Made by a program: the position numbers and the translations under genes. The notes below the pieces were generated by a model. The model ran no database searches, had not been told where the DNA came from, and worked only from the letters and a program-made list of their open reading frames with translations. DNA of 64,000 nt from Arcobacter lacus (GTDB lineage: Bacteria > Campylobacterota > Campylobacteria > Campylobacterales > Arcobacteraceae): the NCBI RefSeq assembly GCF_003063295.1, contig NZ_MUXF01000019.1:305919-369918 (forward strand), in the 5' to 3' direction. Each line of letters starts with the position of its first letter. Positions within the stretch are counted from its first letter, which is position 1. This document shows positions 9,680-19,263 of this stretch, one piece after another.

Positions 9680-10161
9680 AATATTTTTCTATAACTATGA
9701 CAATAAGGCATCTTTTGATGTCTTTCATAGTAATTTTGATGATACTCTTCTGCTTTATAAAAAATGCCTTTTTCATATAAAGTTGTAGCAACTTTAAAGC
9801 CCTTATTTTCAAGCTCTTTTATCAAATTCTCACTTATAGTTTTTTGTTCAATGTCACTATAAAATATAGCTGATAAATATTGACTTCCTATATCTGGACC
9901 TTGCCCGTTTGTTTGTGTAAAGTCATGTATTTCAAAAAATAGTTTTGCTAATTTTTCAAAACTTACAATTGTCTCATCAAATTCAACTTCAATAGTTTCT
10001 AAATGACCACTAAACCCACTACAAACTATTTCATAAGTTGGATTTTCTATAAATCCACCCATATATCCTGAAATTACACTTTTTACACCAGCTACTTTTT
10101 GAAAATAATACTCTACTCCCCAGAAACAACCAGCTGCGAAATATGCTTTAGAAACCCCCAT
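9676..10161 (-). CDS. msrA: peptide methionine sulfoxide reductase MsrA, element-restored 5' end
   Basis: MsrA reduces methionine-S-sulfoxide in proteins. The 161-residue product has the catalytic GCFWG (Cys12), the family motif GYMGG, and a C-terminal MPYCHSYRKIF with a likely resolving Cys. Codons 1-5 (MGVSK) and the AAAGGA site 8-9 nt upstream come from the integrated element. The native beginning of the gene is left about 9.1 kb away beside msrB (19192-19263). The protein therefore appears complete and functional, but its promoter and ribosome-binding site were replaced by integration. Confidence 0.95.
   Translation of the reverse strand: MGVSKAYFAAGCFWGVEYYFQKVAGVKSVISGYMGGFIENPTYEIVCSGFSGHLETIEVEFDETIVSFEKLAKLFFEIHDFTQTNGQGPDIGSQYLSAIFYSDIEQKTISENLIKELENKGFKVATTLYEKGIFYKAEEYHQNYYERHQKMPYCHSYRKIF
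10115..10149. repeat. left attachment site (attL-like), direct repeat copy 1
   Basis: This 35-bp copy matches 19208-19242 at 33 positions, offset 9093 bp, same orientation. It encodes the YFAAGCFWGV part of MsrA, so integration at this site preserves the reading frame of the downstream portion. The crossover core lies somewhere within the repeat. Confidence 0.8.
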
Positions 10162-10366: not shown

Positions 10367-10771
10367 TTGGATTTAGAAAAAGAGATTGAAGAGTTAATAA
10401 AAAAATCATTAGAAAACAAACAATTCGTAGATAGTGTTTTTTTTGATTTACCACTAAATACACAAATTGAACTAAAGAAAATTTTATTCAAAAACTTTGA
10501 TGAATACAAATGTGAAATAAATAGCCATGATATAAGGCATACAAATAAAAACCATTCAAAAGATTTAAAATTCATTACAAAAATTCCTGATATAATAGAA
10601 AACTTTTCAGAAATTAAAAAAAGTTTTGTTGAAGATAAAAAAACAAAAAAACCTATTTATGCTATTGAGTTTTATAAAAAATATAACGACAAAACAGTAA
10701 AAGCAGTAAAAATACACTTAAGAAAAGAGAAAATATTAAGATTGAAAACTTTATTTATACCTAAAAAATAG
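10367..10771 (+). CDS. probable PBECR-type (barnase/EndoU/colicin-like) nuclease domain protein
   Basis: A 134-residue protein starting at TTG 10367 after AAAGGGG. Its second half reads as the PBECR pattern known from phage proteins: a His-containing motif (HDIRHTNKNHSKD), then IPDIIENFSEI, then beta-strands (PIYAIEFYKK, AVKIHLRKEK, LKTLF). These families are predicted RNases fused to or carried by phage and mobile-element proteins. It is the first gene inside the left end of the element and is followed by a good terminator (10776-10803). The function is inferred by motif resemblance only; a non-nuclease role is possible. Confidence 0.5.
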   Translation: MDLEKEIEELIKKSLENKQFVDSVFFDLPLNTQIELKKILFKNFDEYKCEINSHDIRHTNKNHSKDLKFITKIPDIIENFSEIKKSFVEDKKTKKPIYAIEFYKKYNDKTVKAVKIHLRKEKILRLKTLFIPKK

Positions 10772-10934: not shown

Positions 10935-12074
10935 TTATATATAATTCAAAAAATATTTTTTAGCAGTTCTTCTATCTATATTAGCAACTCTTGAAATTGA
11001 AGCAATATTTACTTTTAGTTTTTGCTCTTGTAGTTGTAAAATAGCATTTATTACTAAAGTTTCTTTTTTTTCTTGTAATTTATAAATATAATCTTGTTTT
11101 GCTTCTAAAAGTTGCTTTTTATTTTTCTCTTTATCTCTAATTTTTAAAGTTCTAGTTGCTGCTTTTTGTTGTCTTTGTTTTGTTTCTTGTAAATATTCAT
11201 CATAGTTTAGGTTTTTCATCTTTTCAAATTCCATAACTCCCTCATTTATAACTTTTATATTTTCATTTTTTATTGTTCCATACAATATTTTTCCACTTTG
11301 CCAATATTTGAAAACGGAGTTTGAAATTTGATTTAATTCTGTATTTCCTAATCCTACACTTTTGGAATTATTTATATTTATTAAAAAATTAAAAATATCA
11401 TCTTTATTTAATACTTTTTTACCTTTAGCATATTTCATGGCATATTTAAAAAGTGTTTTATTTCTTTGTCCTTCTATTAGTTCATTTTCATCAATTTTTA
11501 CTTTTAACTTCAAAGGTGTATTTGTAAATTCAGATTTTGGGATATATTTTTTAAAATCATCTAATTCATAGTTAATTTTTTGCGAAAAATAAAAATTATG
11601 TAAAAGTGGATTTCTCCATACTCCATAAAGCCTATGAGAAGCAATTTCATCACATTTGAGTAATCTAGTTATTGCTACTTTTATATCCATAGCATACTTA
11701 AGGGCTTTTCTTTGGTGTGTAAATATATGATTTTTTAAATGATAAGCAAAATGGAAGCCCTTATTTGTTTCTGTTACAAAAGTAGGTTCTAATCCTATAT
11801 TATCTATTATATACTCTAAAAAATTATATATATTTTTAAAATATTCTAATGCTGTTTTATCTTCATATTTATCTATATCAAATACTAAAAAGCTTATTTG
11901 TTCTTTACTATTAAAATTAATAAACAGATGTTCATTTAATGATTTTATAGTTGGGTATTGATAAATATTTGATAAATGTTTTTCATTACCTGATTTTATT
12001 TTTTTAGGAAGATTTTTTAATAAAAGTTCTTTTAATTGTTCATCTTCATCTTTGTATTTATTAACTATTGTCAT
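10935..12074 (-). CDS. Replicase-family replication initiator/primase
   Basis: A 379-residue protein of the Replicase family (ColE2-like RepA and relatives), which primes replication at plasmid origins. Visible features are LVFDIDKYED near residue 62 (the acidic catalytic region), the motif ETNKGFHFAYHL, a helical stretch with ALKYAMDIKVAITRLL, and HRLYGVWRNPLLHNF. A Lys/Gln-rich coiled coil and a C-terminal HTH-like end (INIAS-type, ISRVANIDRRTAKKYF) follow. The ATG at 12074 has AAGGAG 8 nt upstream; an upstream start at 12101 would be inferior. It implies that the element can replicate when excised. Confidence 0.75.
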   Translation of the reverse strand: MTIVNKYKDEDEQLKELLLKNLPKKIKSGNEKHLSNIYQYPTIKSLNEHLFINFNSKEQISFLVFDIDKYEDKTALEYFKNIYNFLEYIIDNIGLEPTFVTETNKGFHFAYHLKNHIFTHQRKALKYAMDIKVAITRLLKCDEIASHRLYGVWRNPLLHNFYFSQKINYELDDFKKYIPKSEFTNTPLKLKVKIDENELIEGQRNKTLFKYAMKYAKGKKVLNKDDIFNFLININNSKSVGLGNTELNQISNSVFKYWQSGKILYGTIKNENIKVINEGVMEFEKMKNLNYDEYLQETKQRQQKAATRTLKIRDKEKNKKQLLEAKQDYIYKLQEKKETLVINAILQLQEQKLKVNIASISRVANIDRRTAKKYFLNYI

Positions 12075-12823
12075 TTGAGTTACTCCTTTTTTTTGGAGCA
12101 ACCCTCAAAGGATTAGAAGAAAATTTAATTCATATTTTTATTGTTATAAGAGTGATTTTTTATAAAAGTTAGATTTAGTAAAAAAAATGCAAAATTCTTT
12201 AAAAAAAATGTTCATTGTAGATGGTCTTACTGTATTATTTAAAATCAACACCAAGTGAGAAATAAAAGATAAGTGAAGAGAACAATTAATAAGAGAAGAG
12301 AGGAGAGAAAATAAATATATATTTTATATATCAAATACTATAGATAATACTGAATACACTAATAAATAATATTTTGTTCTATACACGATTTAAGCCCGTA
12401 TTTATCGGGCTTTATAAGGGTTTTTATTTGTATGAATGATTAATAACTCTTCTTTTATTTTAATTTTTTGCAATGCAACAGAAGAAATACTTAAATTCTT
12501 TTTTCTATTCATTAATCACTAATCATTAGTTTTTGGCTTTATAAGTTTTAAGTGTGATATATTGTTTTATTACTCAAAACTGAAAATTTTTCAAATGAGC
12601 ATATACTCACTTCATTCCGTTATCCCTCCTTTTTCAAAATTTTAAGTTTTAACCTAAGAAAAAATATATATTTCACACTTAACAAAGCCCGAAAACTAAC
12701 GAAAGTGAAAAATTTTTGAAAGAAAAAAGGATTTAATTTTAATCTTCTTAAAAATTAAAAAAGAAGAGAAAAAACAAACCCTCAAATCTTCAAAAATGAA
12801 AACCAAAATTTAAAGGATACAAA
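12075..12823. other. 749-bp non-coding divergent region, candidate origin/control region
   Basis: No convincing gene is seen between the replicase (leftward) and the J-domain gene (rightward). It holds a purine-rich stretch (about 12255-12310) and a GC-rich hairpin AAGCCCG...CGGGCTT (12392-12412). Short inverted copies of AATGATTA lie near 12435 and 12520. A long-range inverted repeat (arms 12535-12562 and 12664-12689, sharing GGCTTT, TTAAGTGTG and an AT run) encloses about 100 bp. Such structure next to a replicase is what a plasmid origin or copy-control RNA would look like, but no iteron array is evident. Confidence 0.45.
12392..12412. terminator. bidirectional hairpin AAGCCCG/CGGGCTT
   Basis: A 7-bp GC-rich stem with a 7-nt loop, flanked by AAAGC/CTTTATAA. 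It reads as a terminator on either strand. No annotated gene ends immediately beside it, so it may end an unannotated transcript in this region. Confidence 0.5.
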
Positions 12824-13288
12824 ATGATAAGAGAAGAGATTTTAAAAGAGTTCCAAGGTGTAGAGGGTATAAATGAAGCTAAAAAAATATATAAAACTTT
12901 AGCAAAAAAGCTACACCCTGATATTGGGGGAAGTGAAGAAGATTTTAAAATACTAAATGAAATATATAACAATTTAATAGAGCATAAAATATATTTTTCT
13001 AACTCTTCAAAAATTGATATTGAATTAGAAAAAATCATAAGCTTAATTTTACATTTTGAAAATATTACTATTGAGTTGATAGGTTCTTGGATTTGGGTTA
13101 GTGGGGATACGAAAGAGATAAAAGAAAAATTGAAAGAGATAGGTTTTAAATGGGCTTCAAAAAAGAAAATGTGGTATTATGGAGAGATGAAAGCTAAAAA
13201 TCCTAATCCAAAATCTATGGAAGAGATAAAAACAAAATATGGAAGTGAAACTTTAAAAAGTAATGAAAAGAAAAAAATAGCTAGTTAA
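12824..13288 (+). CDS. J-domain protein of the mobile element
   Basis: A 154-residue protein. The N-terminal 60 residues form a J domain with the diagnostic HPD loop (AKKLHPDIGGSEEDFK), which would stimulate a DnaK ATPase. The C-terminal half contains WIWVSGDTKEIKEKLK and FKWASKKKMWYY, a small module seen in proteins of plasmids and phages whose role is not known to me. There are no Gly/Phe-rich or zinc-finger regions, so this is not a general DnaJ. AAAGGATACAAA before the ATG is a good ribosome-binding site. Recruitment of host DnaK to the element's replication complex is a plausible inference. Confidence 0.75.
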   Translation: MIREEILKEFQGVEGINEAKKIYKTLAKKLHPDIGGSEEDFKILNEIYNNLIEHKIYFSNSSKIDIELEKIISLILHFENITIELIGSWIWVSGDTKEIKEKLKEIGFKWASKKKMWYYGEMKAKNPNPKSMEEIKTKYGSETLKSNEKKKIAS

Positions 13289-13309: not shown

Positions 13310-14173
13310 TTATCTCGTTCTTTTCAAATAGTAATCCGTAATGGCTTCTCGTTTGTGGTTTAACTCTTCACTCACTTTTAATTTTGCTTCTTTTTCGCTT
13401 ATTCCATTTTTTAACATATCTTCAAACTTATCACGAGCCGAAGAAAAACGGAAATCGTGGGAAGATATATCATATTTTTGTAAATCCTTATAATATGTTG
13501 ATTTATCTATTAAATCATAACTATTATTTAAAAGTTTTTGTTCCAGTTCAAAAGATATTTCTTTAGAATTATATTTATGATTTCCTTTACCTATCAAATC
13601 AATAATATATCCATTATCAAGATATTTTAATGGATTTTTTACCAGTTCAAAGGCTTCACTTTGTCTTATACTCAATTCATATTGAGTTTGGGCAATTAAG
13701 CCACTTATATATCTATCCTCATAAAGATTTTTTATTACATTATCTACATTATTTATATATCTATTTTCGATTATAATATCTGCTCCACTTTTTACAATTT
13801 TTACTCTATCATCAAAAAAACTTTTATCTTCCAAATGTAGTGGGATATAAATATTTTGTTGTTCTAAACCTTGAAGCATAGAAGAAAAACCACGAAGATA
13901 ATTTTCTTTGGTTTTGCTAGATAGATTTTTTAATCTTTCATTAAAAAAATTATCAAGATTTTCTTTTGTGAATAGTGTGTTTAATTTGTTATTTAGATTT
14001 TGAGATTTAAAAAAAGATGTTATATTTCTTAGATACATTTCTCTTTTTTCTGCAAGTTTATCACTATGTGTTAGGTTGTCATTTTTTCCAACTCTTCCAA
14101 CTCCAAAACTTTCCAATCTATGAAAAGCATCTTTCATCTGTTTTTCAAAATTTCCACCTTTAAGATTTGCCAT
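13310..14173 (-). CDS. second tyrosine recombinase (plasmid-type)
   Basis: A 287-residue phage-integrase-family protein. The catalytic set is visible: Arg in LSIRQSEAFEL (about residue 170), Lys in GKGNHKYN, HDFR near 239 (His-x-x-Arg), His in LNHKRE, and the Tyr nucleophile in ITDYYL near 281. An N-terminal SAM-like core-binding region precedes it (about 40-130). It is shorter and quite different from the 658-residue integrase at the right end. It may resolve multimers of the replicating form or invert or excise DNA. It follows the 121-aa gene by 11 bp, so the two form an operon. Confidence 0.75.
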   Translation of the reverse strand: MANLKGGNFEKQMKDAFHRLESFGVGRVGKNDNLTHSDKLAEKREMYLRNITSFFKSQNLNNKLNTLFTKENLDNFFNERLKNLSSKTKENYLRGFSSMLQGLEQQNIYIPLHLEDKSFFDDRVKIVKSGADIIIENRYINNVDNVIKNLYEDRYISGLIAQTQYELSIRQSEAFELVKNPLKYLDNGYIIDLIGKGNHKYNSKEISFELEQKLLNNSYDLIDKSTYYKDLQKYDISSHDFRFSSARDKFEDMLKNGISEKEAKLKVSEELNHKREAITDYYLKRTR

Positions 14174-14184
14174 TGCTAAAAAAC

Positions 14185-14550
14185 CTAAAGATTATTTTGT
14201 TTATAAAATTTTTCTATTGTTCCACGGCTTACTTTTGCTCTATGATTTTCATATAAATATTTTTCTATTGATTGGCTACCCATTCCATTTTTTCGTAGTT
14301 CTAAAATAGTATTTGAGTATTTTTTAATATATTGATTTTTTATATTGTCTAAATTAATTAATGATTTATTCTTAGATAGGGTTTCTTTTTGAATTTCTAA
14401 CAATATAAAAAAACCACTCATTATTCTATTTTTTGTAAGTTCTCCACCTTTTAAAAAGTTTATATATCTCTTAGCAAAATTTTCAAAATCATCTGAATTT
14501 TTAAATCCTAATATATTACTGTAGTATTGTTTTTTCTTTTGAGTAAACAT
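14185..14550 (-). CDS. hypothetical HTH-like protein upstream of the recombinase
   Basis: Not assigned to a family. The 121-residue, basic, helical protein ends with a region (LRKNGMGSQSIEKYLYENHR, then AKVSRGTIEKFYKQ) that resembles a resolvase-type helix-turn-helix. The N-terminal half is Lys/Phe/Asn-rich. It is 11 bp upstream of the 287-residue tyrosine recombinase on the same strand. It could be an accessory DNA-binding protein (excisionase-like or replication/mobilisation accessory), but this is inference from position and fold guess only. Confidence 0.6.
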   Translation of the reverse strand: MFTQKKKQYYSNILGFKNSDDFENFAKRYINFLKGGELTKNRIMSGFFILLEIQKETLSKNKSLINLDNIKNQYIKKYSNTILELRKNGMGSQSIEKYLYENHRAKVSRGTIEKFYKQNNL

Positions 14551-15158
14551 ATTTATAACTCCTATATATTTTTATAAAAACTGAACACCTAAAAGATGTT
14601 TAAATATAAGTTTATTTCTTAACTGTGGTTTAGACATGTAATTTATTTAAAGGCAATATTACGAAATGCCAAAAAGCAATAACTTAAGAAGTTAAAAGGC
14701 AAGTAAAAAGTAGAAATAAAAGAAACTCAAATTCAACGGGGCAGTAAGTTTTTGGCTAGTTGTTAAATGTTTGAGTATTTGTCAGATTTTAGGGTATTTT
14801 TATACAAAATATAACAAAAATAGGCATTGCTAAATGCCCATTTTATCGATATATCTTTTCACAATGTGAATTTTCTGTATCGCTTCCTATCTCTGTTTAA
14901 TTTTTTAAACAGAGATAAGGAAGCTCCCACGAGTTGAAAATCAAAAATTAAAAAATATGGTGCCACCCATACTTACTTTTTTTATTGCTTTTAGCTTAAC
15001 AATAAAAAAGTTCTTTTTAATTTTTGATTATATATTTATACATAAATGTATCCTATAAAAATATAATGCCCTTTTTAAGGGCTTATATTGTTATAAGATA
15101 TTTTTTAGTTAAAAGTTGATTGTTTTCAAAAATGCGATGAAGTAGGAATAAAAAAGCT
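14551..15158. other. ~600-bp structured non-coding region in the element
   Basis: No credible gene on either strand. It includes a small palindrome TTCACA-A-TGTGAA near 14858. A hairpin with 19-20 bp arms and one bulged base lies at 14882-14924. A nested pair of inverted repeats follows: outer arms 14939-14954 and 15014-15029, inner arms about 14977-14987 and 15000-15009. A 14-bp segment TTGCTAAATGCCCA near 14827 recurs near 10819 after the PBECR-like gene. These may belong to a single-strand origin, a regulatory RNA or a second replication-control region. Confidence 0.5.
14882..14924. repeat. long hairpin, 19-20 bp arms, TTTT loop
   Basis: Left arm 14882-14900 and right arm 14905-14924 are complementary except for one bulged T. 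The loop is four T. It is too long for an ordinary terminator, has no U-tract and ends no gene. It is flanked by further inverted repeats at 14939-15029. Confidence 0.7.
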
Positions 15159-15191
15159 AATAAGAAGTTCTTTTAAAATGAACTTCTTATT
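15159..15191 (-). terminator. terminator of the lipoprotein operon
   Basis: A perfect 12-bp inverted repeat (AATAAGAAGTTC / GAACTTCTTATT) with a 9-nt loop directly follows the stop codon of the 15192 gene. Read leftward, it is followed by AGCTTTTTT, so it fits an intrinsic terminator for the 16.6-15.2 kb operon. Confidence 0.75.
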
Positions 15192-15413
15192 TTATGAAGT
15201 AAGTATTAAATATGAAATAAGAGCTATTTCATAATTATTTAATCCATTAGAAGGAGTTTCAACTTCTTCTTTATATGAATAAGAATTACTTTTAATAACT
15301 TTATTCTCATATATAGGGAAAACAGTTAAATTTGTATTTTTTAATTTAAGATTCTCATTTTCTAATTTTAGTTTTTCTATTTCTAGTTTTAATAATTCTT
15401 CTTTATTTTCCAT
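15192..15413 (-). CDS. small coiled-coil hypothetical protein, 73 aa
   Basis: Not recognised. Residues 3-30 form a Leu/Lys/Glu/Asn-rich heptad pattern (LKLEIEKLKLENENLKLKN), a probable coiled coil. A Ser/Tyr-rich linker and a short hydrophobic end (YEIALISYLILTS) that could touch a membrane follow. It is the last gene of the element's leftward cargo operon, 17 bp after the lipoprotein gene, and a terminator follows at once. Confidence 0.55.
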   Translation of the reverse strand: MENKEELLKLEIEKLKLENENLKLKNTNLTVFPIYENKVIKSNSYSYKEEVETPSNGLNNYEIALISYLILTS

Positions 15414-15430
15414 TTAAACCCTTTTTAGAA

Positions 15431-16024
15431 TTAATTTTTTATTTCTTGTTTTTCTTCTACTTTTTCATCATTATCGTTTAAAGTAGAAGTTTGGTTTTGA
15501 GTTGTTTCTTTTTCTTCCGAAACGGTAGTTGCTACTTGTTCTGTAGTTCCTAGAATTTCTTGTATAGCTTTTGGGTGGCATTTATCTCTATGAATAGAAT
15601 AGTTTTTTATTCCTTTTTGCCATCTAAAAGGCTTTTCTAAAGTTTCTAATCGTAATTTAAGTATAAATTCATTGTTATAATAAAAGTTATAATCTTCTTC
15701 AGATAGTTTTTTCCCTTCAAATATTTTATCCATTTCTATTCTGTGTAGAGATAACATGCAAGGTTTCATTAATTCTATATATTCTAATTTTTGTTCTTGA
15801 GATAAACTATTATATTGTTCTTTCATATCAGTTTGTTCTAATCCATCAACTGTTACCAACATTACTAATCCACCTATTGCCATACCAATTGGATTTCCAG
15901 ATTGCATTAAATCTGCTCCAAATGACATAGAATTTTCTTGATTTACACCTGTTTCACTTTTTGAAGCACAACCAGAAAAAGCAACTCCTAACATTAATAA
16001 TACTATTAATAATATTTTCTTCAT
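15431..16024 (-). CDS. predicted lipoprotein of the element
   Basis: A 197-residue protein with a clear lipoprotein signal: a Lys start, hydrophobic ILLIVLLMLGVAF and lipobox FSGC with Cys at about residue 19. After a Ser/Asn linker there is a Gly/Met-rich hydrophobic stretch (GNPIGMAIGGLVMLVTVD) that could insert in a membrane. An acidic helical region and a Thr/Glu-rich disordered C-terminus follow. No family recognised. It lies between two other small envelope proteins, suggesting a joint cell-surface role for the element. Confidence 0.7.
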   Translation of the reverse strand: MKKILLIVLLMLGVAFSGCASKSETGVNQENSMSFGADLMQSGNPIGMAIGGLVMLVTVDGLEQTDMKEQYNSLSQEQKLEYIELMKPCMLSLHRIEMDKIFEGKKLSEEDYNFYYNNEFILKLRLETLEKPFRWQKGIKNYSIHRDKCHPKAIQEILGTTEQVATTVSEEKETTQNQTSTLNDNDEKVEEKQEIKN

Positions 16025-16054
16025 TTCTCCCCTTTTTTTAATAAAAGATTTTCA

Positions 16055-16420
16055 TTATCTTATTCTCACATAAAATTCTTCACCATCATCTGATAACGAT
16101 ACATGATAAATAAATGGTATTTCAGGTCCATTAAAATAAATTCTCATTGAAGCTTGACAAGTATAAGCTCCTGTTTCAGAATCTTCATTTATTGTTGTTA
16201 TTGATTCTTTATCTAACTTACCTTTATAGTTATTAAATGCTTTCATAGCTTCATCTACTGATTTTATAGATTCTTTATCAGGTTTACCCAAGAATCTTTT
16301 TTCTAATACATCAATCACTGCTTCATCAGAACATTTAGGAACTGGATTATATGTATATATATAAATTCCAAATACTAAAACAGCTAAAATTGGTAAGCCT
16401 ATTAATAATTTCTTTATCAT
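16055..16420 (-). CDS. small membrane-anchored hypothetical protein, 121 aa
   Basis: Not recognised. An N-terminal hydrophobic segment (LLIGLPILAVLVFGIYIYTY) acts as an uncleaved anchor or signal. It is followed by a small periplasmic domain with two Cys (KCSDEA and YTCQAS), which could form a disulfide. The pattern of a VxxVLEKRFLGK helix then beta-strands ending FYVRIR suggests a compact alpha/beta fold. The gene is 30 bp upstream of the lipoprotein gene and on the same strand, with a GGGGAAAAATG-type ribosome-binding site. Confidence 0.6.
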   Translation of the reverse strand: MIKKLLIGLPILAVLVFGIYIYTYNPVPKCSDEAVIDVLEKRFLGKPDKESIKSVDEAMKAFNNYKGKLDKESITTINEDSETGAYTCQASMRIYFNGPEIPFIYHVSLSDDGEEFYVRIR

Positions 16421-16435
16421 TTTTCCCCTTCTTTA

Positions 16436-16630
16436 TCATATATTTTCAATAAAATTTCTCAAACTTCTCTTTAATTCTGCTTTACTCTGAAAATCCATGT
16501 CTAAGTTTGCTCCACTCATCCAACCATAAAAATCTTCTATTATTTCTGCTAAATATATATGATTATATTCATTAGTAAAAAAACCTCTTTCTGTCAAATA
16601 CTCATTTATAGCTTGTGCTAATTCATCCAT
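16436..16630 (-). CDS. small acidic hypothetical protein, 64 aa
   Basis: Not recognised. A 64-residue helical, acidic protein beginning MDELAQAINEYLTERGFF. The ATG at 16630 is chosen because AAAAGGA lies 5-9 nt upstream; an in-frame TTG at 16648 lacks a site. It is the first gene of the leftward cargo operon and begins only 9 bp from the 49-bp palindrome that separates it from the divergent XRE regulator, so it is probably repressed by that regulator. Confidence 0.6.
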   Translation of the reverse strand: MDELAQAINEYLTERGFFTNEYNHIYLAEIIEDFYGWMSGANLDMDFQSKAELKRSLRNFIENI

Positions 16631-16638
16631 TTTTATCC

Positions 16639-16687
16639 TTTTTATCAATCAGTTATATATGAATTATATATAACTGATTGATAAAAA
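16639..16687. promoter_or_regulatory. 49-bp perfect palindrome, probable operator
   Basis: Two 22-bp arms (16639-16660 and 16666-16687) are exact reverse complements around a 5-bp centre GAATT. The arms contain TTATCAATCAGTTATATAT. It lies between the divergent 64-aa gene and the XRE-family regulator gene, the classic place for an operator bound by a homodimeric regulator. The ribosome-binding site of the leftward gene touches its edge, so an RNA hairpin in the leader is also possible. Confidence 0.7.
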
Positions 16688-16727
16688 CTGCTTAAATAAT
16701 TATTATCTACAATATGGAGTTTTAATT

Positions 16728-16982
16728 ATGAAAAGTATTTTCCCTGATATTGACAAAAGTAAACTAGATGATTTTTATATTAAAATAGGGCAAAATGTAA
16801 AGAAAATTCGAAAAGAAAAAGGCTTGAGCCAATTGGAACTCGCAATTATGATTGGGCAGAAAAGCACTTCTTTTTACTCAAACTGTGAAAATTATAAAAA
16901 CAAAGAGCATTTTAACCTTGAACATTTATTTTTAATTTCTGATGTTTTAGGTGTAGAAATAGAAGAATTTTTTAAAAATTAA
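16728..16982 (+). CDS. XRE-family transcriptional regulator
   Basis: An 84-residue protein with a helix-turn-helix of the lambda Cro/CI (XRE) type: IGQNVKKIRKEKGLSQLELA, then SFYSNCENY. It has a short N-terminal extension and the usual end LEHLFLISDVLGVEIEEFF. It faces the leftward cargo operon across a 49-bp palindrome and probably regulates itself and that operon. No peptidase domain is present, so an SOS-type switch is unlikely. It is the only XRE-type repressor within the element. Confidence 0.85.
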   Translation: MKSIFPDIDKSKLDDFYIKIGQNVKKIRKEKGLSQLELAIMIGQKSTSFYSNCENYKNKEHFNLEHLFLISDVLGVEIEEFFKN

Positions 16983-17067
16983 TATTACTTTATATCTTGA
17001 TAATATAATTCTTCAACTGTAATTTTCCATTGCCTATACTTTATTATATAGACAATGGGTTTTATAT

Positions 17068-19044
17068 TTATATATTAAGTTCTCTCAAAATTTCAAAGTT
17101 ATATTTTATATTCATTCTTTCTTTTAAAATAGCATATCCCTCTTCTATTCCAAAATCTAAGTTTTCAATTAACTCTTTGGCTTTTAGAATTTCAATGGGT
17201 TCTCTGTAATAGTGATGAATAGTTATATCCTTATGTAGGTCTTTGGTTGTATGTCCTATTAACTGTTTTAATTGTAAAAGCTTATTTGTATTATCATTTT
17301 CTCCATTCAAAAATTTACCTACAAAATATGCTCTTAAATCGTGAAATGCTGGGAGTTTATAATCTTCATATATATCAGAATAATTATCTTTTACATATAC
17401 TTTTATCTCTTGATTAAAAGAGAGTGGGAAATCTTTTCTATCTCCATCTTTATTTACTTTTAGGTCAAATACAAAATCTGCTTTATTGTCTATTCTTTCT
17501 TGAATGAAATTTAAAAATCCCAAATCTATCAAAAAATTAGTTATGGGAATGGTTCGGCTTGAGTGTTCATTTTTTAAGCTTTGTTTCTCTTTATCTGTAA
17601 TTCTAAGAGTTAATGAGTGTATAACTTCATCATTTACAATGCTCTTTTTAAAATCTTTAACCCTAATTTGTGCTAGTTCTCCACCTCTAGCACCAGTAAA
17701 AATTGCTAAAATAACACTCCAAAAGATGTGGGGAGAAGCTTTAGTATGTCTTGTGAAATTTCGTTCACATTGTCCTCTATCATTTTCTTCTTTTTTATAT
17801 CTATCTTTTAAAAAGTTATTTAAAATTTGAGATGATAGATATGTTTTTTTATTTTTATCTGTTAAAATTTGGGCTTCTATTGTTAAATCTTTATATTCAA
17901 CATTTAATTTATCCCATAACTCTAAGTTTAATTTTTCATATTTTTCAGGGTCGTAAAGTTTTATATCTTTTAAAAACCTTTTTATTGTTTTTATCTTTCC
18001 TTGTAATCCTGATAAAACTGGTTTTTTGTATTTTTCAACATCATTTTTTGTAAAATTTATAATATATACCATTCCCTTTTCTCGCCAATCTGTTAAATCT
18101 TGATGTTGAACAACTGGAATTTGTGTATATAATCTTTTTAAAGCTTCTATATCTTCTAATCTACAATCCATAATTTTTCTTTTTGGAACTCCAAACTTTT
18201 CATCGCCTAACATCAAAGAGCAAAACTGCTGTAAATCTGTTCTATTTCCACGAATGCTGTTTACTTGTGTTTTTTGATTTTTGTAAGATAAAAATTTTTC
18301 TATTAAAAAATCCCAGTTATCTTCATCATTTTTTGGATATATAATATTTCTAAGTTGTGGATATTGAGTGATAAAATCTTCTATACTTCCAAGATTTGCT
18401 GAACTCTCTTTTTTACCCATTAATTTTTGGTATTTTTTAATATCTGCTCTTATTACTTCTATCTCTTTTTTAACTAAATTTTCGGCAAAAAGAGGCAACA
18501 TATCATCAGTGATTTTTTCGATTTCATCAGGTTTTATAATATCTTGTCTTTTTAAAATATCATTAGCTTTTTTTCTATAAAGCCCTATATTGTCTTTATT
18601 AAAAGCTTCTTCTAATTCTGATAATTCTTTTTTTAAAGCTATTTCAGTATGTCCACCAAACTCAACCCCGAACTCATCATAATGAACCAAAGCTTTATAT
18701 CTTTTATTTTCAATATCTGCTCTACGGCTTCCCATATCCTTGATATAATGGTTATCTTGATTTAAAGCTTCATTTTCATATCTTTGTAATAGACCTATTA
18801 CATACTCATTTAACTCTTTCAAGGTTAAGTTCTCCCTAGATAAAAATAACAGTTCTATCTTATTATCTATATATGATATTATAAAAAATAGTGAACTATT
18901 GAATAGGTGCTTATAATAACCTTTTTTTGATAATAATTTCATAAGTGAAATTCTGAATATTGGAGTTTTTTTATTTAGATTATATGGTATCTTTTTTCTA
19001 AAATACCATATTCCATTTTTTTGAAAGCAAGAGTTAGTTTTCAA
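17068..19044 (-). CDS. large tyrosine integrase of the element
   Basis: A 658-residue phage-integrase-family protein. The N-terminus has the DUF6538-like pattern (GIWYFRKKIPYNLNKK) typical of large integrases of genomic islands. The catalytic domain is at about 440-640: TGARGGELAQIRV (Arg near 451), FHDLRAYF (His-x-x-Arg near 568), LIGHTTKD (His) and HHYYRE (Tyr near 610). The TTG start follows AAGGA by 7 nt. It lies 160 bp from the right attachment repeat with its promoter end facing that site, the usual arrangement. It is inferred to catalyse integration at msrA. Confidence 0.9.
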   Translation of the reverse strand: MKTNSCFQKNGIWYFRKKIPYNLNKKTPIFRISLMKLLSKKGYYKHLFNSSLFFIISYIDNKIELLFLSRENLTLKELNEYVIGLLQRYENEALNQDNHYIKDMGSRRADIENKRYKALVHYDEFGVEFGGHTEIALKKELSELEEAFNKDNIGLYRKKANDILKRQDIIKPDEIEKITDDMLPLFAENLVKKEIEVIRADIKKYQKLMGKKESSANLGSIEDFITQYPQLRNIIYPKNDEDNWDFLIEKFLSYKNQKTQVNSIRGNRTDLQQFCSLMLGDEKFGVPKRKIMDCRLEDIEALKRLYTQIPVVQHQDLTDWREKGMVYIINFTKNDVEKYKKPVLSGLQGKIKTIKRFLKDIKLYDPEKYEKLNLELWDKLNVEYKDLTIEAQILTDKNKKTYLSSQILNNFLKDRYKKEENDRGQCERNFTRHTKASPHIFWSVILAIFTGARGGELAQIRVKDFKKSIVNDEVIHSLTLRITDKEKQSLKNEHSSRTIPITNFLIDLGFLNFIQERIDNKADFVFDLKVNKDGDRKDFPLSFNQEIKVYVKDNYSDIYEDYKLPAFHDLRAYFVGKFLNGENDNTNKLLQLKQLIGHTTKDLHKDITIHHYYREPIEILKAKELIENLDFGIEEGYAILKERMNIKYNFEILRELNI

Positions 19045-19191: not shown

Positions 19192-19263
19192 TCATTTTTT
19201 GCTGAACACTCCCCAGAAACACCCAGCTGCAAAATATGCTTTTTTAATATTTTCTAAATTCAA
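19192..19263 (-). pseudogene. msrA: 5' remnant of the original msrA
   Basis: Starting at TTG 19263, three bases after the msrB stop and preceded by AAAGGA, this 23-codon frame encodes an N-terminus ending KKAYFAAGCFWGV. It then diverges into element sequence and stops at TGA. The shared YFAAGCFWGV part matches intact MsrA at 10161. It shows that msrA originally followed msrB in an operon and that the element entered inside the active-site codons. It may still be translated as a short peptide. Confidence 0.85.
19208..19242. repeat. right attachment site (attR-like), direct repeat copy 2
   Basis: The second copy of the 35-bp repeat, with mismatches only opposite 10128-10129 and 10138. The sequence is chromosomal msrA on the msrB side, and element DNA begins leftward of it. 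Confidence 0.8.

Follow-up and report, generated by a model that had tools for sequence, protein, structure and literature searches.

The window, the whole 64-kb stretch of DNA that was analysed (GC content of 26%; the genes on it point to Arcobacteraceae as the likely source), carries an integrative element in which the gene of an XRE-type regulator faces four cargo genes across a long inverted repeat. The arrangement is best interpreted, with a probability of about 60%, as an envelope cargo switched by a repressor: the XRE protein would bind the repeat and repress both the cargo and itself, and the cargo would likely serve to exclude phages or DNA. The position of the operator, its covariation with the recognition helix, the cassette behaviour of the regulator, the element with its att sites, and the envelope signals were established by computation.

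The inverted repeat (16639..16687) consists of two arms of 22 nt each (16639–16660 and 16666–16687), which are 100% complementary and separated by 5 nt. The original prediction of a 49-bp perfect palindrome applies to the arms, which are indeed exact inverse copies located between the XRE gene and the four-gene cargo, and does not extend to the center, where GAATT is non-palindromic. The length of the repeat is far above chance. When loops of up to 12 nt are allowed, the arm pair is the longest in the window, with a runner-up of 15 nt, and the longest arm reaches 15 nt in ten first-order Markov sequences as long as the window. As RNA, the palindrome folds with approximately −24 kcal/mol on both strands; a function as a bidirectional terminator was rejected because no T run follows the stem and the repeat is at the position of an operator. 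The exact operator core is absent from the genome contigs searched. Three viral contigs containing a 19-mer of the left arm were set aside as unrelated, since none of the 13 element and flanking proteins tried is present in them.

The regulator (16728..16982, plus strand) is an 84-residue protein with an HTH_3 domain (PF01381, 36.2 bits against a cut-off of 23, E = 6.4e-9), which identifies it as a member of the XRE/Cro-CI type. Its relatives are common, with matches in 77 of the 104 genomes of the bacterial family. The regions upstream of 112 related XRE genes were compared (30 best family hits, 60 from other listed matches, 17 order-level hits, and five loci from elements or the same genome); duplicates, short regions, and regions containing N were removed, and the set is a subset of all matches of the family search. 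The next longest perfect arms in this set measure 16, 14, and 10 nt, in agreement with the claim that the repeat is longer than usual XRE operators.

There is good evidence, of three kinds, that the repeat region is the candidate binding site of the XRE protein: its position, the covariation of recognition helices with operators, and the clade in which the longest arms occur. Among 111 related XREs, the identity of the recognition helix correlates with the similarity of the operator (r = 0.43, permutation p = 0.001), also when the rest of the protein is taken into account (partial r = 0.29). Pairs with helix identity of at least 0.8 have operators with 16.2 matches out of 18, compared to about 13.9. 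The best match to the operator of the window among the 110 others belongs to the sister XRE at locus L139 (17/18). Because helix identity predicts operator similarity and the closest operator is that of a sister, the repeat is considered the site of this XRE, and the proposal of a dedicated regulator with its operator in the spacer is strengthened by the conservation of the right arm in the sister locus. The XRE of the window belongs to a supported clade of four rows (100/97; L036, L139, L140, and L141). The two longest perfect arms among the 112 regions, those of the window (22) and of L140 (16), which comes from another family of the order, are both in this clade. Since L139 and L141 are without long perfect arms, arm length is not a fixed trait of the clade.

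The regulator shares features with the controller (C) proteins of restriction-modification systems, which are also small single-domain XRE proteins with a palindromic site near their own promoter. The closest solved structures include C.BclI (E = 0.0028), the best PADLOC match is Control_protein (1.6e-7), and close relatives of the XRE head dptFG restriction operons. In contrast to the C proteins, no restriction gene is present here, the cargo is divergent and of envelope type, and a single long repeat takes the place of two C-boxes. A C-box-like pair of operators in the window scores 19.0, below the 99th percentile of shuffles of 24. Two palindromes are found upstream of many other XREs, where 42 of the 112 regions score above the 99th shuffle percentile and about one would be expected. 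The modal spacing of these pairs in other XRE clades is 53–57 nt. Examples are TTTATCCTATAGGATAAA, which occurs twice with helices like IGIKSIAFYSNCEN, and CTTGTTATAACAAG, which occurs with the helix GHKSVSIISNAE.

A related element, L014 in genome G014, encodes an XRE protein identical in sequence to that of the window, together with a 95% identical copy of the first cargo protein, ac64. Of the repeat, L014 retains only a core with 9-bp arms, GTTATATATGAATTATATATAAC, which corresponds to 16652..16674 in the window. Over 600 bp (16441–17040), the two sequences differ in five scattered single substitutions and one cluster in the left arm, CAATCA (16646..16651) in the window and TTAT in L014; four end-gap columns of the alignment were left out of this count. 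The CAATCA change by itself makes the left arm fully complementary to the right arm. The right arm (16666..16687) is conserved in L014 (22/22) and in L139 (19/22), the XRE of which is 64% identical, and none of 2000 random sequences matches L139 as well. The left arm reaches 13/22 in L139, with the match located elsewhere, and the left side of L139 aligns poorly. Template switching is described in the cited excerpts as a known process that homogenises the arms of inverted repeats (PMC8604942, PMC7202029). The perfect outer arms are probably the result of such a switch during replication, in which the conserved right arm was copied onto a quasi-palindromic left arm, and CAATCA is its likely product. 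This is the simplest history suggested by the comparison; its direction, judged with L139 as the one outgroup, is likely and not proven.

Because the sister element L014 encodes the identical XRE and has just the core with 9-bp arms, perfection over all 22 bp is dispensable, and the functional significance initially attached to the 49-bp perfection is not supported. The palindrome length might even be mainly a mutational relic, with the 23-bp core alone used by the XRE and the outer arms functionless, an explanation that falls slightly short of even odds. It accounts for the identical XRE beside the 9-bp arms in L014 and for the changed segment being the complement of the right arm, which the excerpts describe as the hallmark of template switching at quasi-palindromes (PMC8604942, PMC7202029). 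However, the right outer arm is kept in L139, and L140 carries an independent 32-bp perfect palindrome; therefore, one or both outer halves may matter.

The four cargo genes lie on the minus strand, separated by 15, 30, and 17 nt, and diverge from the plus-strand XRE gene as originally described. The first, ac64 (16436..16630, minus strand), encodes an acidic protein of 64 residues (12 D/E versus 5 K/R by direct count), which moves with the XRE as a cassette and was found in two of the 104 family genomes. The mem121 gene (16055..16420, minus strand) was detected in one of the 104 genomes, its own, and encodes a membrane-anchored protein with a single N-terminal hydrophobic segment and two cysteines, Cys30 and Cys88. 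A 112-residue lipoprotein beside another XRE (L055) is its distant relative (E = 4.5e-5 in a small set of ORFs) and has both cysteines in common. The lipoprotein lipo197 (15431..16024, minus strand) has the lipobox LMLGVAFSGC, and the lipobox cysteine and two further cysteines (Cys19, Cys89, and Cys149) are invariant across four elements. It occurs in four of the 31 genomes of the genus, including its own, always in elements of the same type; the loss of reading frames in homologous elements was checked, and the frames are intact in the other three, with 195–200 residues. The last gene, cc73 (15192..15413, minus strand), encodes a small protein with a charged, coiled-coil-like N-terminus, and has an 83% identical relative in L015. 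The predicted terminator closes the cargo operon with a hairpin (15159..15191, minus strand; −12.8 kcal/mol, z = −5.3), downstream of which the minus strand has a T run. The description of the cargo as envelope proteins stands for at least two of the four, mem121 and lipo197, which are clear cases.

Searches of the cargo proteins against Pfam, PHROGs, NCBIfam, and PADLOC returned only weak matches at the level of signal peptides or of chance. Lipo197 is absent from plasmid and phage records, mem121 is absent from plasmid records, and neither lipo197 nor the XRE has a relative in viral contigs. The predicted structure of lipo197 has a pLDDT of 58.8, is helical at residues 64–160, and does not match a fold in the PDB at E ≤ 0.001; that of mem121 has a pLDDT of 54.4.

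From this arrangement we infer repression, autoregulation, timing, and the exclusion function. Bound to the inverted repeat that separates the divergently transcribed cargo and XRE genes, the XRE protein would occlude both the promoter of the cargo and its own, as the position of the repeat suggests. A promoter-like TTGATA-17-TATTAT of the XRE gene (16678..16706, plus strand) has its −35-like hexamer inside the right arm; it is a consensus match only, and such hexamer matches are no commoner than in shuffles. The bound XRE would hold down the expression of the four cargo genes and set the level of its own. In cells with little or no XRE, for example when the element has just entered a new cell or repression has been lost, the cargo operon would be expressed, and its proteins would change the envelope, most likely excluding phages or competing DNA.

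The XRE and ac64 genes are approximately 99% identical between two elements, whereas their integrase genes are 94.9% identical (1876/1977) and the next cargo genes differ. It is conceivable, though rather unlikely, that the two form a self-contained control pair of a repressor and an acidic antirepressor, that is, a bistable switch with a pluggable envelope cargo. The near-identity of the pair beside differing cargo, the restriction of ac64 to those two elements among the 104 genomes, and its net acidic character would fit such a pair, but ac64 lacks homology to any antirepressor, and there are only two instances.

The sisters of the regulator place the repressor-switched cargo in the context of defence. 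The XRE genes of L140 and L141 are directly followed by dptF and then dptG of phosphorothioate-dependent restriction (DptF E = 1.7e-119 and 1.1e-123, PADLOC DndF E down to 6e-152; DptG E = 2.6e-71 and 6e-70), and the XRE of L139 (region L157) adjoins an mntA-hepT pair, so that restriction or toxin-antitoxin genes are neighbours of the XRE in all three sisters. In L158:5996-9148 and L159:6049-9200, the XRE, dptF, and dptG genes are co-directional, with an extended palindrome upstream of the XRE, perfect in L158 and shorter in L159; regulation of dptFG restriction by these XREs is possible. Because two sisters head dptFG operons and the third adjoins mntA-hepT, the XRE switch looks defence-derived, which makes a defence-type role of the cargo more plausible, and no more. 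Defence is not the general job of the XRE family, since only one of 86 divergent neighbours in the wider set has a strong PADLOC match (DrmC, 1e-16; the others are near 1e-4). One of the 86 is an HSDR_N protein. Outside the clade, the XRE of L042 has a similar helix and faces a 350-residue protein that reaches only 0.0014 with a PADLOC IIG restriction model and by eye resembles the N-terminus of a restriction enzyme. A toxin-antitoxin addiction cassette, with the XRE as the antitoxin and one of the cargo proteins as the toxin, is quite improbable. Weak matches of the XRE to HipB/Y4mF-like antitoxin models (2.1e-6, below the cut-off) and the mntA-hepT pair beside L139 point towards it, but the cargo has no match to a toxin family in Pfam, NCBIfam, or PADLOC, and the divergent layout, the four genes, and the envelope location argue against it.

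Envelope proteins are enriched beside the XRE family when scored by a home-made signal-peptide rule: lipoproteins account for 12 of 83 divergent neighbours compared to 18 of 493 background ORFs (p = 3.6e-4), and envelope signals for 46 of 83 compared to 200 of 493 (p = 0.016). The divergent neighbours include outer-membrane beta-barrels (6/86) and also signalling proteins (PAS, MCP, and GGDEF). TraT and Eex are surface and entry exclusion lipoproteins of mobile elements. The cargo is similar to such systems in combining an element-borne lipoprotein with a membrane protein, but differs from them in that no sequence match to these families was found in the scanned libraries and no conjugation machinery was recognised on the element. 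Exclusion is the preferred function of the cargo, at roughly one in three, and a cargo that benefits the host through stress resistance, adhesion, or nutrient use, without a role in exclusion, is about as likely. The beta-barrels and PAS/MCP proteins among the neighbours of the family are consistent with a host benefit; nothing specific speaks against it, apart from the restriction or toxin-antitoxin genes beside the sister XREs.

The element is located between what are presumably msrA and msrB. Direct repeats of 35 bp, identical at 33 positions, mark its ends (10115..10149, inside codons 5–16 of msrA, and 19208..19242, at the integrase end), from which it follows that the element is about 9.1 kb long and supplies the start of msrA. 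The element end at 10115–10161 restores the start of msrA with its first codons, and the displaced 5′ end of msrA is found at 19208–19242. The backbone is formed by the tyrosine integrase int658 (658 residues; 17068..19044, minus strand), beside one element end, the small HTH-like protein p121b (14185..14550, minus strand), the second tyrosine-recombinase-like protein rec287 (13310..14173, minus strand), a J-domain-like protein (phrog_15863; 12824..13288, plus strand), and a primase/replicase-type Rep (PF03090, weak PriCT_1; 10935..12101, minus strand). Related elements occupy the same msrA site in G012, G014, and G093 (L067), and the cargo beside the integrase varies between them. Neither a recognised conjugation gene nor a canonical relaxase was seen on the element, and scans of its ten proteins found no restriction or modification genes (PADLOC) and no capsid or packaging genes of phage satellites (PHROG). 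A 134-residue ORF (10367–10771, plus strand) lies between the att end and rep. A second copy of the J-domain-like protein, 82% identical, is present elsewhere in the same genome (L016:1757-2209, minus strand), among neighbours that by eye have the look of a defence island. The gap in the backbone holds small gene pairs in L013:5963-6680 and L066:8000-8537; the L066 pair matches RelB and ParE, and that of L013 is without a Pfam match. Limited queries of the open-licence literature returned no relevant report, by title or abstract, of such Arcobacter elements or of the RNA described below.

The residues R170, K196, H239, R242, H273, and Y281/Y282 of rec287, which are taken to be the R, K, HxxR, H, and Y catalytic residues of tyrosine recombinases, are invariant in 11 of 11 sequences. 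Approximately 145 residues precede the catalytic region, no Pfam or PDB match to a recombinase was found, and rec287 is absent from plasmid and phage records. It is conserved whichever integrase the element has. The non-coding region upstream of p121b-rec287 is common to nine elements and contains a candidate conserved structured RNA (14810..15032, minus strand) with a GTGGCA-loop hairpin, a long hairpin, and a terminator-like hairpin at its end. RNAalifold predicts 38 pairs, of which 11 are changed on both sides, a count equalled by one of 500 shuffles. The covariation score is 0.317 compared to 0.186 in shuffles (0/500), and slid partners reach at most 0.113. Two features favour RNA over single-stranded DNA: the terminal hairpin contains wobble pairs, and a terminator is predicted on the same strand. 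The covariance model detects the RNA in nine of 104 family genomes, precisely the nine with a rec287 of at least 70% identity, and in six of 398 genomes of the order, all already known. No Rfam family reaches its threshold in the region; matches at 14882–14924 (MIR5743) and 14806–14891 (L20 leader) were rejected as far below the gathering score. Upstream of rec287 relatives with 42% identity, the corresponding place in L070 and L071 is taken by another long hairpin, CCCGGTCTCTATG...CATAGAGACCGGG, adjoining a xis-like gene and another integrase.

In the cited excerpts on SGI1, the tyrosine-recombinase-like MpsA clusters with MpsB, the inverted repeats of oriT, and a required small RNA (PMC9299015, PMC6414798). 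The module of the window resembles this mobilization module (mpsAB, oriT, and sgm-sRNA) in layout and kind. As in the SGI1 family portrayed there, an integrase, a replication gene, and a tyrosine-recombinase-like protein with a small partner are present, with inverted repeats and a conserved RNA upstream of the recombinase-like gene (PMC9299015, PMC6414798). Unlike SGI1 in those excerpts, the gene order is reversed in that the small gene precedes the recombinase-like gene, the N-terminal region of rec287 is long, and the RNA is known by covariation only.

The eye-catching perfect palindrome thus appears to combine a real operator core with a probable homogenisation by template switching, which calls for caution in the reading of long perfect operators. 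A regulator subclade known beside dptFG restriction is now linked to an envelope cargo on a mobile island. A broader picture, in which a family of small Arcobacteraceae elements would unite SGI1-like mobility (a tyrosine-recombinase relaxase, a small partner, a structured RNA, and a hairpin transfer origin) with exchangeable exclusion cassettes, their envelope proteins switched by a defence-derived XRE with an extended operator and an acidic antirepressor, is conceivable but unlikely. If the RNA and the recombinase constitute a transfer module, SGI1-type mobilization would extend to Campylobacterota, and the element offers a place where switched envelope exclusion could be tested.
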